A stretch of DNA of 64,000 nucleotides from Candidatus Bathyarchaeota archaeon A05DMB-4 (GTDB lineage Archaea; Thermoproteota; Bathyarchaeia; Bathyarchaeales; SOJC01), in the NCBI GenBank assembly GCA_019685575.1, contig JABFQO010000007.1, forward strand, positions 1-64,000. The letters run 5' to 3'. A program made the position numbers and the translations under genes. The notes beneath the pieces are model-generated. The model was not told where the DNA came from. It ran no database searches and was given only the letters and a program-made list of their open reading frames with translations. The number at the start of each line of letters is the position of its first letter. Position 1 is the stretch's first letter. Positions 1,343-27,505 of this stretch are shown here, one piece after another.

Positions 1343-1882
1343 ATGGTGTTCCACGTGTCCTACATGGAAGTTTGGAAGGTATTAGAGGATTTGATTGAGG
1401 AGTTCCGAAAACGGGACGAAACAGTGCCTTCGGAGATAATGGAAGATTTGCGTTCGGCAAAGTCGCTCATAAACGTCCAACGTGCCGACCCTTCTCACTT
1501 GAAAGACAGTGTTCAGATTGAGGTTTACTTAGAAAACGTCGAATCTTATCTCATATCTAAAGCGCAGGAAAAGTTTGGCAAAGAATTCGCCGAGCAGTGG
1601 ATGAACAAAATCAAGAACGCTAGGACGGGCATTCTTGAAGAGACGGTTGAGGGTTCTACAGTTTCCAAGTTCGTACCCGGCGTACCTAGAGACGCAACCT
1701 GGATTCGGGTAAAGATTTCTGAGGATATTCCACGCGTCGCAGTCGAAGCGATCGCTCAGGAATCTGCACTCTCAACCAAGATGCAAGATAATGAGTTTTT
1801 GTTGGTTTATGGTGAAGAAGAAAAAATCAAGTCGTTTGTAAAGAAGTTAACAGAAAAATTCCGTGGCGCAAGAAAAACTTGA
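1343..1882 (+). CDS. DUF2096-like archaeal protein
   Basis: A 179-residue soluble, mostly helical protein with no signal peptide or membrane segment. The opening segment (WKVLEDLIEEFRK, then a hydrophobic helix ending LINVQRADPS) resembles the archaeal DUF2096 family from memory; the function of that family is unknown to me. The C-terminal third (about residues 115-175) looks like a small alpha/beta domain. Met-8 at 1364 is an equally good start, because neither ATG has a clear Shine-Dalgarno site; GAGGGG lies about 20 bases upstream of 1343. It lies 100 bases upstream of smc on the same strand and could be co-transcribed with it. Confidence 0.7.
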   Translation: MVFHVSYMEVWKVLEDLIEEFRKRDETVPSEIMEDLRSAKSLINVQRADPSHLKDSVQIEVYLENVESYLISKAQEKFGKEFAEQWMNKIKNARTGILEETVEGSTVSKFVPGVPRDATWIRVKISEDIPRVAVEAIAQESALSTKMQDNEFLLVYGEEEKIKSFVKKLTEKFRGARKT

Positions 1883-1982
1883 ACAAGCTCATGAACATAA
1901 GAGTTAAAACTGCTGGATGTATATTACAGAATAATCTTATAGAAGAGAAAATCACTCACGCCGCGGAGCGACACGGGAAGCC

Positions 1983-4900
1983 ATGCCCTACATCAAAAAA
2001 ATAGAACTGAAAGGGTTCAAATCATTTGGTCCAGAAACCGTCACCATCACTCTAGACAAAGGCTTCACCGCGGTCACGGGTCCGAATGGAAGCGGAAAAA
2101 CAAACGTTGTCGACGCCGTGCTTTTTGTTTTAGGCGAATTAAGCTCAAGGCGCTTGCGGGCGGAGAATTTTTCGAGACTTATCTTTCATGGTTCCCCGGA
2201 GGCTGGCGTCGAGAAGGCGAACATGGCAAAGGTCGTTATTCAATTCGACAACACTGACGGACGAATTCCCATAGAAACCAGCACGGTAACAGTTTCTCGA
2301 GAAGTGTTTAGGAATGGACAAAGCGTTTACCGCGTTAATGGCAGAACCTTTCCCCGAGCGCGCGTTCTCGATTTGTTTTCTATGGCTGGCTTGAGTTCAA
2401 CTGGTCATAACGTGATTCTTCAAGGCACGATTACCCGTTTAACTGAGATTTCGTCTGACGAGAGAAGAAAAATTATCGAAGACCTAATAGGCATCGCGCA
2501 GTATGACGCCGAGAAGGCGCAGGCTGAGCAGAAACTTCGAACCGCCGAGATTTCCATCCGCACCGCCATGGGAAGAATAGATGAGGTGCAACGAAGAGTC
2601 GATGACTTGGAGAGAGAACGCACTGAGCTGCTTCGTTACAACTTCATACAGAAAGAAATAAAACGTCTCGAAGCCATGAAATTCAGCTACGAAATTAACA
2701 AAATAAAAGAGAAAACCAGCGAAGTCACGGCGAGGCTTGAGGAAATCAACAGCAAATTGGAAAGCCTCCGCCAAATAAGAGAACAACACCGCACGCAAAG
2801 ACACGCTATCGAGTCGGAATGGAGAAAACTAAGCTCCGAAATGGTCGAAGAAGGCGGCTCAAAAGTTTTAGAGGTTCAAATCAAAATCGGAGACCTAAAA
2901 TCCAAACTTACCGAACTCGTCACAAAAATCGGAGCTGGAACCACTAGTTTTGAAGGCTTAAAAAAAGTCGACGAAAATAACACGCAACAGTTGGAGTCGA
3001 TAAGGAAAGAGATCGTTGAAAACCGCAAAAGAATCGAACGCCTACAACGCCAAAAAGACAGGCTACAGAAAGAAATGGACGCGAAGCAAGCAAACCACGA
3101 CGCGCTGGCAAATGAGACCAACCAGTTATGGAAAGACTTGGGAGAACACAACGCAAGAATTCGAGAGATAGAAAAACAACTCGACAACCTTTACCGCAAC
3201 CTTATGGACCTCCGCACCGAGCACGCTCGAAGCCAAACAACGATTAAAATTCTTACACGTAGGCTGGAAGACCTGAACAACCGTAAAAACCGGTTCGTCA
3301 CAACGCTGGGCGAATTGGAAAAATCTCGCACAGACCTTGAAGAGGTACAGAAGGAACAGAAAAAACAGTTGAAAAGTCTCGAACACACGCTGGAGAGAAG
3401 AATCGCGCAAAAAGACGCTGTAATACGCGAAGTAGACGAGGCAGGAAAAATCGCCGAAACAGCAAGAGAGGCAGTTGTTGAATTTGCGACCCAACGAGAA
3501 CTGGCAGAAACCGTAGCAGCAGAAGAAAACGCGTTAAGAAACATAGAAGAACTCGCCCGAATCGGAGTTATCACAGGCGTTTATGGACGCTTACGAAACC
3601 TAATCAAAACCGAAAAAACCTACGAACAAGCAATCGAAGTCGCCGCAGGAGGATGGCTCGACGCACTCGTAGTGAAAGACATCGAAACAGCCTTCACATG
3701 CACAGAAACACTAAGACAACTCAAACTGGGCAGAATAAAAATCATCCCAATCAAAGGGCTGGTCAAACATCGAGAGTTGAAACTGCCGCGAACCGAAAGT
3801 CGAGGCGGAATAGCCTCAAATTTTGTCAAATGCACTAAAGAACACATGCCCGCCGTTGATTTCGTCCTAGGCGATACGATTATAGTTGATAACGAAAAAA
3901 CCGCCATGAAAATCGCTCAGCAAGGCCACCGCACAGTCACAATCAACGGCGACCTCTACGAACCCGGAGGCGCACTTGAAAGCGGCTACTACCGTGCCCC
4001 AATCGACTTTTCCACAATAATCCCGAGCGAAAGCGCGATTAAGAGGCTGGACGAAGCCGTCAGCGCCCTTAGAGAACATTTAACTCGACGAGAAAGCGCG
4101 GTCTCGAGTTTGGAGGAAGAAATCGACAAGCTCCGCGTGGACATCACGAAGATGTCTGAAGCCATCGCCACCCTCGACGGCGAAATCGACAGAATTAAAC
4201 GAAGCGCAAAGATTACTCAACACAACATCCGACGCGTTGACAACTACATAAAGGGTTTACAAGAAAAATTAGACAAGGAAAAAACCCAAACCGGACTGCA
4301 AAAAGCCCAACGGCAAAGCATCCGAAAAGAAATACAGCAACTCCGCACCGAATTGGCTACGTTAAGACGGAAAACCGACCTTTCCCTCATTCAATCGATG
4401 GAGGTTCAACGCGAAAAACTCGCAGACGAAATCATAGAAATGCGACGCAAACTCGGCACGATCGACACTGAAATGTCAACGCTTCATTCAAAATACGAAA
4501 ATGTTCTGAAACCTTCCTACGAAAACATCAAAGTTCAACTTGGAAAAGTAAGGAAGCAACTTTCAATCGTAGAAAAAGAAGTCAACGAAGCACTCCAAGA
4601 GCGAGAACGATTAAAAGAAGAACTTTTGACACTTGAAAAGTCACGAGAAGAGCTTTCGCACTCAGTCTTGTCGGCGCGTAAAGAAGCCAAAAACTTCACC
4701 GACCAAATCGACAGCATCGACAAAAAACTTCGGCACCTAGACACGGAGTACGAACAAACCGAACGAATATACAATCAACTTCAACTCAGCCTTCAGACAA
4801 CTCAGCTTCAACTGGAGCAATACTGGCAAAGATTAAGAGAATTCGGCTGCGAAAAACCACTCGTCGTGTCGCCTGAACAATTAGCCGAAGCCGAAACGTC

Positions 4901-24966: not shown

Positions 24967-24989
24967 ATGCGGATTAAGCTCTTAGATTT

Positions 24990-25012
24990 TTTATACAATT
25001 TTTTTGTATAAA
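24990..25012 (-). promoter_or_regulatory. Perfect 9-5-9 palindrome overlapping the nrdD TATA box
   Basis: TTTATACAA at 24990-24998 and TTGTATAAA at 25004-25012 are exact inverted repeats around five T residues. On the nrdD strand the proximal arm gives TTGTATAAAAAA, whose TATAAA core is centred about 26 bases from ATG 24966. A dimeric protein bound here would block TBP. The rest of the 24967-25179 gap is A/T-rich. Confidence 0.65.
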
Positions 25013-25179
25013 CCACGAGTTTAGCTGGCGAAATCTATATTCAGCTTAGACGGAAAACTGTTCAAAAAACGCACGGTATTTCTTTATCTAATTTTTTTGA
25101 ATAAATTATATAAAATTTTAAACTATATGTCAGCCAGATTTACACGAATAATATGCATTTGAGACGGTAAAAATGCTTG

Positions 25180-27405
25180 CTACGTCTGAGAGTTATGTTG
25201 CTGGTATTTTGTCGAGGTTCTCGTAAAAGTTTTAAGTCCGTCCACGTTGCCGCATGAGGGGCATTTCGGGAGTGCGGCGTAAGTTAGCTTTCCACAATGT
25301 GTGCAGTGGCTGAGGGTTTGGTCATAGGTGAAAAGTCCAATGTTGAACGTGTTTACGATTTGTTTCGTGTTTGACAATAATTCCTCGGCGTTTTGTGTGT
25401 TTTTTCGGAGAGATAAAAGCGTGATGTGCCCTCCGCGGGTAAGTTTGTGAAAGGGTTCTTCCGTCGACAGGCGTTCTTGCCAAGGAATTTCTAGATTAAA
25501 CGGTATTATACCAACGTTGGTGTAGGCAGGTTTTTCTTTGCTGCCTTGTGCGTTAATTTTTGCCCAGCCGAATCTTTCGGCATCGAGTTGAGCGAACCGT
25601 GTTGCAGCTTCTGGGCTGGAGAGCATTGACGTTACCACGCGGGTCTCGGGTTTTCTTGAGAATTCCTTGGCACGTTGGGCTATGGTTTCTGCGATTTTTT
25701 CTGCAAGTTTTAGGGCTTCTTTGTCGGTTTGTATTGGTTTTCCGATAAGAGCCTTTGTTGCTTCGTTTAATCCTGTAAAACTGATAGTTCGTGTGGAGTT
25801 TTCGTGACGGTGATAGTTTTCGTTGTTTCGAGTTTGTGAAAGGAAGGGCAGCAGTTTTTCTTCAAGACGTTGTTTAATGGTTTGATGCTTAATTTCTAAG
25901 GCGTGGGCCGCGGTTTCTAGTTGTTCCTCGAGTTGTTGAAAGAATTTTGCTTCTTCTTTTTCGTTTTGGTAGGCGATTCTGGGTAAATTAATCGCTATAG
26001 TGTCGAGGTTGCCTGTTCTCATTGTGTCGATTTCCCAATCTTCTTTCCATTCGTTTCCTATGCGGGTGCCAGTGGCAGCGTAGGTGGCACATGTTTGTTT
26101 TTCTGGGAAATAATTGGCGAAATAGGGTGTGCCGGTAAGAGTTGCTAGTTGGTGGGCCAATAGAAGAATGGGCTGGGTTTCGGTTTTGTTAAGGTTTTCT
26201 GGGCGAAGTTTTATTATTATGCTGGGGTTGAATGAGGGTTTTTGTTTGTTTTCGTCGAGGATTATTTTTAGAAGAAGATGGGCAAGTTTCTGAGTTTCTT
26301 CTTCGAACTCGGCATAAAAGCCGTTTGTTTTTTCCTCTGCCCCTTCGGCGATCTTTTCTTTAAAGAAATCGGGAACAGTTAGTTCGATGCCAAGTGTAAC
26401 TTGGATCGGCATGCTGTTTGAGGTTTGTGTTTGGTTGAGGTTTTGGAGAAAGAGTTGTAGTTTTTCTTCTATTTCTATTGTAGTCATGTTTTTGGTGAAA
26501 GGTGCAAGGAAGATGTTGAAGTAGTCGATTGTTTGTTCGCTATTAATCTCTCTTGACGCGTTTTGAAGTACGTTCAGCGTGATTGCAAGTGCTTGGTCAA
26601 GGTTTTTTGGTGGTTTGCCTAGGCCGTTTTTTAGAAAATAGCGTAGGTCGTGGATGATTTCGTTGGGTTTGAGTATCCATGTGCCGAGGTTTTCGAGGTG
26701 GATAGCGCCGGACATATGAGCGTCGGAAATGTCGCGTGGCAACACGTTTAGCAGTGTGTATTCCTCTATTACAGCGTCGCCCGCGGCTTTGTGGACGGCT
26801 TCTACGTTTGGCGTGTTGGTTTTGGCTGTGTTTTTTATTAATTGTGTGACGTCGTATACTGGAACGCCGAGGCGTGTGAGTTTGTGCCTGTACTCTTCTA
26901 ATCCTTTTTCGAGGAGGATTGTGTTAACGATTTCGCGGATGAGTGGTGCGGTTAGGTATTTTGTTTTGAATTCTTGTAGGCGTTTTTCTGTTTCTCGGGC
27001 GATGTTCTGAGCTAGATTTACTGGTACGTTGGCTTCTTTTATGAGGCTCAGTGCGATTTTGTTGCGGTCGAATTCTTCCATTGCTAGGCGTGAAGTACGG
27101 ACGAGTATTTTTCGGCGTTTGAAGGTGTGTTTTTCGATTTCTTCGCTGATGTCGACGATCATCTTGCCCAAGTCGGTGAGTTTGTATTTTTTGGTTTCCA
27201 CATCGGGTTCAATGAGGTCGGTTTTGAGAAGAAATTTAAGGTGGTAGGCGAATCTGCCAGCGTCTTTGGTTTGGTTAAGTTTGAGATTGTTCATGATCTT
27301 CGTGTACGAGAGCGAACCTTTGTCGTAAAGAAGAGTCAACACTTGAAGACGGATGCCGCTGGATACGGCTTTGAGAATTTTCACTCCTTTTCTTGTATGC
27401 GACAA
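25180..27405 (-). CDS. HTH-ATP-cone-NrdD fusion, probable inactive reductase homologue
   Basis: A 741-residue protein. Residues about 8-85 form an ArsR-like winged helix (AVSSGIRLQVLTLLYDKG; AGRFAYHLKFLLKTDLIE; KLTDLGKMI). An ATP cone follows (VRTSRLAMEEFDRNKIALSL, about 98-190), then a full-length NrdD-like domain aligning with the neighbour (INLPRIAYQ; FTGLNEATKALIGKP; LTRGGHITLLSL) and a zinc ribbon (Cys 701, 704, 715, 718). The radical loop RVTGYYQR is replaced by RTSTKYQQ, so Gly becomes Thr-732, and the last 15 residues are missing. The active-site Cys in RPFCQEHDLR is lost (KPNEIIHDLR), as is the CCR pair. TTG 27405 has GGAG upstream. Most likely a nucleotide-sensing regulator; the function is inferred. 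Confidence 0.85.
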   Translation of the reverse strand: MSHTRKGVKILKAVSSGIRLQVLTLLYDKGSLSYTKIMNNLKLNQTKDAGRFAYHLKFLLKTDLIEPDVETKKYKLTDLGKMIVDISEEIEKHTFKRRKILVRTSRLAMEEFDRNKIALSLIKEANVPVNLAQNIARETEKRLQEFKTKYLTAPLIREIVNTILLEKGLEEYRHKLTRLGVPVYDVTQLIKNTAKTNTPNVEAVHKAAGDAVIEEYTLLNVLPRDISDAHMSGAIHLENLGTWILKPNEIIHDLRYFLKNGLGKPPKNLDQALAITLNVLQNASREINSEQTIDYFNIFLAPFTKNMTTIEIEEKLQLFLQNLNQTQTSNSMPIQVTLGIELTVPDFFKEKIAEGAEEKTNGFYAEFEEETQKLAHLLLKIILDENKQKPSFNPSIIIKLRPENLNKTETQPILLLAHQLATLTGTPYFANYFPEKQTCATYAATGTRIGNEWKEDWEIDTMRTGNLDTIAINLPRIAYQNEKEEAKFFQQLEEQLETAAHALEIKHQTIKQRLEEKLLPFLSQTRNNENYHRHENSTRTISFTGLNEATKALIGKPIQTDKEALKLAEKIAETIAQRAKEFSRKPETRVVTSMLSSPEAATRFAQLDAERFGWAKINAQGSKEKPAYTNVGIIPFNLEIPWQERLSTEEPFHKLTRGGHITLLSLRKNTQNAEELLSNTKQIVNTFNIGLFTYDQTLSHCTHCGKLTYAALPKCPSCGNVDGLKTFTRTSTKYQQHNSQT

Positions 27406-27505
27406 AGGCTTTTCTCCATTATTAGGGGTGCTAATTGTATTCGCAGTTGTAAGGTTTAAAGTTTAAGCGAGTTTCCTCTGTTCGTGTCAGTTTCTCTGCG
27501 CCTCC

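Follow-up and report, generated by a model that had tools for sequence, protein, structure and literature searches.

A family of archaeal proteins joins a winged helix-turn-helix (wHTH) and an ATP-cone to a body derived from class III ribonucleotide reductase (RNR), NrdD, that has lost its catalytic residues, and we propose that its members are probably nucleotide-sensing transcription regulators of RNR genes, built from a class III RNR and convergent with NrdR, DNA and nucleotide binding being inferred. Cells make DNA precursors de novo only through RNR. The member from which the analysis started, P0001, is encoded in a window of 64,000 nucleotides (the whole stretch of DNA that was analysed) from Candidatus Bathyarchaeota archaeon A05DMB-4, and all window features given below lie on its minus strand. 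The architecture, the loss of catalysis, the conservation across the phylum under purifying selection, the linkage to two RNR classes and the persistence in genomes without NrdD and the activase NrdG2 are directly supported, and the promoter words common to the regulator and nrdJ are no more than suggestive. DNA binding, nucleotide binding, RNR as the main target and repression at high dATP are all inferred, the sign of regulation included.

Domain layout and loss of the catalytic residues

The first-pass annotation, made from the letters alone, had described the protein at 25180-27405 as an HTH, an ATP-cone and an NrdD in one chain, and this description is borne out. The open reading frame is real (741 aa, TTG start) and matches Pfam NRDD with 288 bits, DUF7347 (PF24038, HTH-type) exactly at the cut-off and the ATP-cone (PF03477) with 24.8 bits, just below the cut-off of 25.8; relatives of P0001 pass the cut-offs for the ATP-cone and for the HTH (PF12840/PF01022). 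The gained wHTH occupies residues 10-95 (27121-27378), where the structural model has the helices and wing, and includes a putative recognition helix, DAGRFAYHLKFLLK (residues 48-61; 27223-27264), with 63% mean pairwise identity in the family alignment. The ATP-cone follows at residues 100-190 (26836-27108) and is the best conserved large domain (62–64% mean identity). Its hairpin reads VRTS, as does that of the adjacent NrdD, and not the canonical KRDG, so that adenine nucleotide binding or ligand preference may differ; E110, F112, K/R116 and I117 are retained. The NrdD-like core spans residues 195-697 (25315-26823). Behind it the zinc ribbon CxxC..CxxC (25240-25314) keeps all four cysteines (Cys701, 704, 715 and 718) and remains alignable with the adjacent NrdD, as had been noted.

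The AlphaFold model of P0001 (34-sequence alignment) has a pLDDT of 87.6 and a pTM of 0.79, and its helices and strands are those that a winged helix, a cone and a barrel should have. A predicted structure had been suggested as a check, and Foldseek places this one in the class III NrdD fold: the top PDB matches are all class III NrdD, with E down to 8e-27 and a TM-score on the target of up to 0.78 (T4 NrdD). The model of a homologue from an ammonia oxidiser (pLDDT 85.3) again finds NrdD (E 2e-21, TM-score up to 0.66). By these two methods the ten-stranded barrel of NrdD is present in the protein. Against the NrdD equivalog TIGR02487, P0001 scores 302 bits, under the cut-off of 326, and the adjacent NrdD passes with 532.

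That neighbour (P0002; 22864-24966) is an intact class III RNR with every catalytic motif present, and is the presumed target. Compared with it, P0001 has KPNEI in place of RPFCQ, lacks the QCCR cysteines and reads RTSTKYQQ instead of RVTGYYQR in the former glycyl-radical loop (25198-25221), where Gly has become Thr732; these substitutions agree with the first-pass annotation. The C-terminal tail, which it had called gone, is reduced relative to the adjacent NrdD and is better described as shorter. The NxN flap is absent as well, and the HxHD triphosphate motif is down to its first His; these motifs and the radical residues are defined as for the NrdD of Prevotella copri (PMC11226230).

The losses are conserved across the family. 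Among 71 aligned members, P0001 included, none has the thiyl-radical Cys, the second active-site Cys, the radical Gly-Tyr or the NxN flap (0/71 in each case), a Gly somewhere in the old radical loop is left in five, and the second His and the Asp of HxHD persist in 4/71 and 7/71, respectively. A homologue with the same HTH that kept the cysteines and the radical Gly would have refuted the original reading; there is none among the 71, and the five with a loop Gly lack Gly-Tyr. The sole cysteine of P0001 outside the zinc ribbon, Cys439, is close to the lost thiyl site, out of register and not conserved, and no cysteine column outside the zinc ribbon exceeds 30% in the family alignment. Intact NrdDs of the same genomes retain their catalytic motifs. 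Loss of catalysis is thus a trait of the whole family, and since the catalytic features fail, the protein is not an RNR.

Linkage to RNR genes and their promoters

An intact NrdD directly adjoins the family gene in f1 (the family of the window), f2, f4, f6 and f37. In five other families (f10, f19, f48, f51 and f61) the gene lies directly upstream of, and co-directional with, that for the adenosylcobalamin-dependent class II enzyme NrdJ (TIGR02504 above cut-off in examples from f10, f19 and f61). By descent these linkages probably amount to about four separate ones, two to class III and two to class II, and in most families the RNR is not a neighbour. A small ORF of about 92–108 aa (cluster 36) lies between regulator and nrdD in f4 and f6 (L047, L049). 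The window's own genome has NrdG2, beside other NrdDs. Eighteen sampled genomes (G042, G048, G055, G057, G063, G067, G105, G117, G120, G136, G143, G167, G169, G182, G198, G219, G236 and G354) carry a dead copy with no intact NrdD and no NrdG2 above cut-off, although in the f40 pair among them, G143 and G198, the copies are only remote. Absence of the activase here means the NrdG2 profile cut-off only, NrdG of the TIGR02491 type being outside that search. Each of the 18, ammonia oxidisers among them, has a class I/II-type RNR barrel protein.

These data bear on an alternative that we consider unlikely, namely that the protein is a non-catalytic RNR partner, a regulatory subunit that hetero-oligomerises with NrdD (or NrdJ) and tunes its activity, the HTH serving for protein contacts. 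The retained NrdD fold, the NrdD adjoining the gene in the window and in five families, and the VRTS type of cone common to P0001 and its neighbour would all suit such a subunit. However, the persistence of the dead copy in the 18 genomes argues against a mere NrdD subunit as well as against radical chemistry, and adjacency to class III in some lineages and to class II in others makes it unlikely that the protein is just a subunit of NrdD, to which NrdJ is only distantly related. In addition, few stretches are as well conserved as the putative recognition helix for DNA, whereas the core, where contacts would be expected, evolves fastest.

The intergenic region before nrdD (24967-25179), likely the nrdD promoter, is unusually well conserved in several blocks among same-family relatives, and Rfam matched no RNA element near the locus, this region included. 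Upstream of the family gene, the element CTTAAACTTTAAACC (27453-27467) is a TATA box with a gene-specific TTTAAAC core. After dereplication of the family at 85% protein identity, 45 of 71 family promoters have TTTAAAC at the TATA position, compared with 11 of 214 control promoters taken at the same loci, and the extended pattern has four matches genome-wide. It is absent from nearly all RNR promoters examined, which leaves it at most a role in autoregulation or as a promoter element specific to this gene. Searches for enriched palindromes and words over 71 promoters in Bathyarchaeia found no operator common to regulator and RNR promoters, and a comparison of words common to family-gene and nrdD promoters in f1 and f6 gave nothing convincing. 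Two candidates were set aside: a second word set (AGCCGACAGCCCC), which probably reflects neighbouring tRNA genes, and triple clusters of TGATC, which are not locus-specific, with many elsewhere in the genome and similar control counts.

The ammonia oxidisers (24 genomes) give a different picture. There, of all 4-mers, GATC shows the strongest joint enrichment in the two kinds of promoter, 4.8-fold in the regulator promoter and 3.1-fold in the nrdJ promoter relative to 107 promoter-bearing intergenic control regions, and at least three GATC within 150 bp occur in 75% of regulator promoters, 50% of nrdJ promoters and 13% of controls. Since these genomes share ancestry and GATC clusters also occur elsewhere, this evidence is suggestive only. 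A recurrent element of the form TGATCGxTGATC...TATA...TTGATC was also seen in several ammonia-oxidiser genomes (L274 1501-1537, L283 1501-1537), where it precedes different or unrecognised genes, with no tRNA there.

The surroundings of the gene also raise the question of other targets. In 15 of 41 loci (L049, L047, L050, L058 and others), from several lineages, pyrB lies at most three genes away from it, and so the targets may be broader than RNR. The protein could then be a nucleotide-sensing regulator of a wider set, such as pyrimidine synthesis and replication, of which RNR is not the main target, and the lack of an RNR neighbour in most families fits this too. Yet pyrB is convergent with the family gene or its NrdD neighbour, so that no promoter is shared (pyrI is divergent from pyrB), and the repeated adjacency to two RNR classes and the word common with the nrdJ promoter in ammonia oxidisers point to RNR; we regard the wider set as improbable.

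Distribution, conservation and descent

HTH-cone-NrdD proteins across the archaea were named at the outset as a thing to look for, and they turned out to be widespread. In the own-family and order-level sample, the gene is present at full length or in large part in 40 of 41 genomes, G026 being without, and of 200 sampled genomes of the GTDB phylum about 120 gave an end-to-end match to a profile of HTH plus cone (counted from the printed rows of the search). The architecture recurs across the Thermoproteota sample except in a block of crenarchaeal-type families; f18, f26, f27, f30, f32, f34, f35, f38, f43 and f47 gave only weak matches to the profile or none. Carriers range from deep-sediment anaerobes to the oxygen-breathing ammonia oxidisers (f19, f48 and f51; amoA present), and f19 has a homologue in all 29 sampled genomes, with a near-invariant HTH in the two dozen aligned. 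In a named collection there are at least 534 loci, and the 80 matches listed are all archaeal, nearly all titled Bathyarchaeota and the rest close archaeal MAGs. Viral contigs gave cone matches only, with no HTH attached.

The core is shortened in f22, f25, f29, f31 and f40 (frames of 539–654 aa), often lacks the zinc ribbon and in places is no longer recognised by Pfam; the HTH and usually the cone stay, in what looks like progressive erosion towards an HTH plus a cone. In f40 the cone is degenerate as well; homologues such as those at L244, L251, L258, L259 and L243 keep the HTH beside a degenerate cone (such as LNWDYSFEPINRNIIAEQLVEA), and their ligand may have changed. One genome of f22 (G045) has two copies, a full-length 745-aa frame and a shortened 640-aa frame (L062, L245). 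Some ammonia oxidisers (L197, L198, L205, L206, L211) have a very acidic, Asp-rich N-terminal extension ahead of the HTH.

Within the family, conservation is highest in HTH and cone, whereas working NrdDs conserve their core more strongly than their cone. Mean pairwise identity in the cone is 64% in the dead family against 43% in NrdD, in the core 35/31% against 50/44%, and in the radical-loop region 24% against 57%. In a maximum-likelihood tree a single branch sets all dead copies apart (support 100/100; recovered in 100% of bootstrap trees), which is compatible with a single origin.

An enzymatic activity that has gone unrecognised, for example radical chemistry with displaced residues, might still be imagined from the retained NrdD fold, Cys439 near the old thiyl loop of P0001 and the loop Gly of five members. 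It finds hardly any room in a family in which cysteine columns beyond the zinc ribbon never exceed 30%, Gly-Tyr is missing from all 71 aligned members, many carriers have no NrdG2 above cut-off and the core of some members has eroded below Pfam recognition, and we consider it highly improbable. A decaying pseudogene or chance fusion, for which only in-frame stops in some related ORFs of single assemblies could be cited, is refuted by reading frames open in more than 100 genomes, by the single origin and by dN/dS values well below 1 (Nei-Gojobori, close pairs: 0–0.06 in HTH plus cone, 0.03–0.19 in the core), so that the signs of decay that would have overturned the first-pass annotation are not seen.

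Relation to known regulators, and meaning

The regulator of RNR genes that we favour would work as follows. The N-terminal winged helix would bind the promoter of its own gene and those of RNR genes, namely class III nrdD in the window's genome and, in ammonia oxidisers, class II nrdJ. Sensing of the ATP/dATP ratio would fall to the ATP-cone, which would shift the NrdD-like body to another conformation or oligomeric state. Free of chemistry, this body would act as a dimerisation and allosteric scaffold that passes the signal on through dimer geometry; the changed state of the body would alter DNA binding and with it RNR transcription. A more far-reaching version, which we offer only tentatively and think rather doubtful, is that two signals are sensed, dATP/ATP by the cone and the other dNTPs by the dead body, at the former specificity site of the dimer interface. 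The protein would then tell the promoters of RNRs, whatever their class, how large and how balanced the dNTP pool is, and would be the general regulator of RNR in much of Thermoproteota, even in aerobic ammonia oxidisers that have given up the anaerobic enzyme.

An NrdR-like sensor of this kind had been the inference of the first-pass annotation, and linkage to two RNR classes, persistence without NrdD and NrdG2 and the nrdJ promoter word lend it support, binding and repression remaining inferred. Like NrdR, the family joins an ATP-cone to a DNA-binding domain, has links to RNR genes that extend beyond a single class and is proposed to read ATP/dATP. NrdR, however, is a small, unrelated protein in bacteria with an N-terminal zinc ribbon as its DNA-binding domain and no RNR body, whereas in the P0001 family a winged helix and another subtype of cone are joined to a dead NrdD of 500 aa. 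P0001 matches neither TIGR00244 nor the NrdR zinc ribbon (PF22811), and is thus not NrdR. NrdR is described as rare in archaea (PMC9110341, PMC12176259), and TIGR00244 is above cut-off in only two of 57 genomes. One is the window's own, where contig C20 carries NrdR (157.5 bits), NrdD (a second type, PRK08270 equivalog) and NrdG2 together (788-1465, 1462-3582 and 3579-4076, all minus strand; L001); in the other, G018, NrdR also lies beside an NrdD. This restriction suggests acquisition from bacteria, and a genuine NrdR elsewhere in the window's genome is a caveat to the NrdR-like reading.

The other parts have relatives of their own. To class III NrdD (PF13597, TIGR02487) the homology is clear in fold, cone position and zinc ribbon; the dead family differs in lacking Gly-Tyr, the active-site cysteines and NxN, in its broken HxHD and in the added N-terminal winged helix. 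ArsR/SmtB-type and HTH_20/DUF7347 proteins have the same type of DNA-binding domain, but stand-alone ArsR proteins have no cone and no RNR body, and P0001 does not pass the metalloregulator model NF033788 (19.7 bits, cut-off 55). IMPDH-related protein VII of Methanothermobacter is likewise archaeal, related to an enzyme and predicted to contain a winged helix; it binds a promoter and is a suspected energy-state sensor, though it belongs to the IMPDH family, has CBS domains and is not an RNR (PMC3087415). Pfam and NCBIfam matches include no model of the whole architecture, and no paper on the HTH-cone-dead-NrdD architecture was found in the literature searched, most subscription papers being outside reach. 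ATP-cone regulators of RNR genes and transcription factors derived from enzymes are known kinds; what is new is the variant of wHTH, cone and dead NrdD.

Such proteins are easily read as anaerobic RNRs in organisms without any, which calls for caution in annotation. As a regulator, the family would show clearly how an essential radical enzyme can lose its chemistry and take up transcription control, with a graded series of core erosion along which this can be followed, and it offers a concrete, testable candidate for the control of RNR transcription over much of one archaeal phylum.
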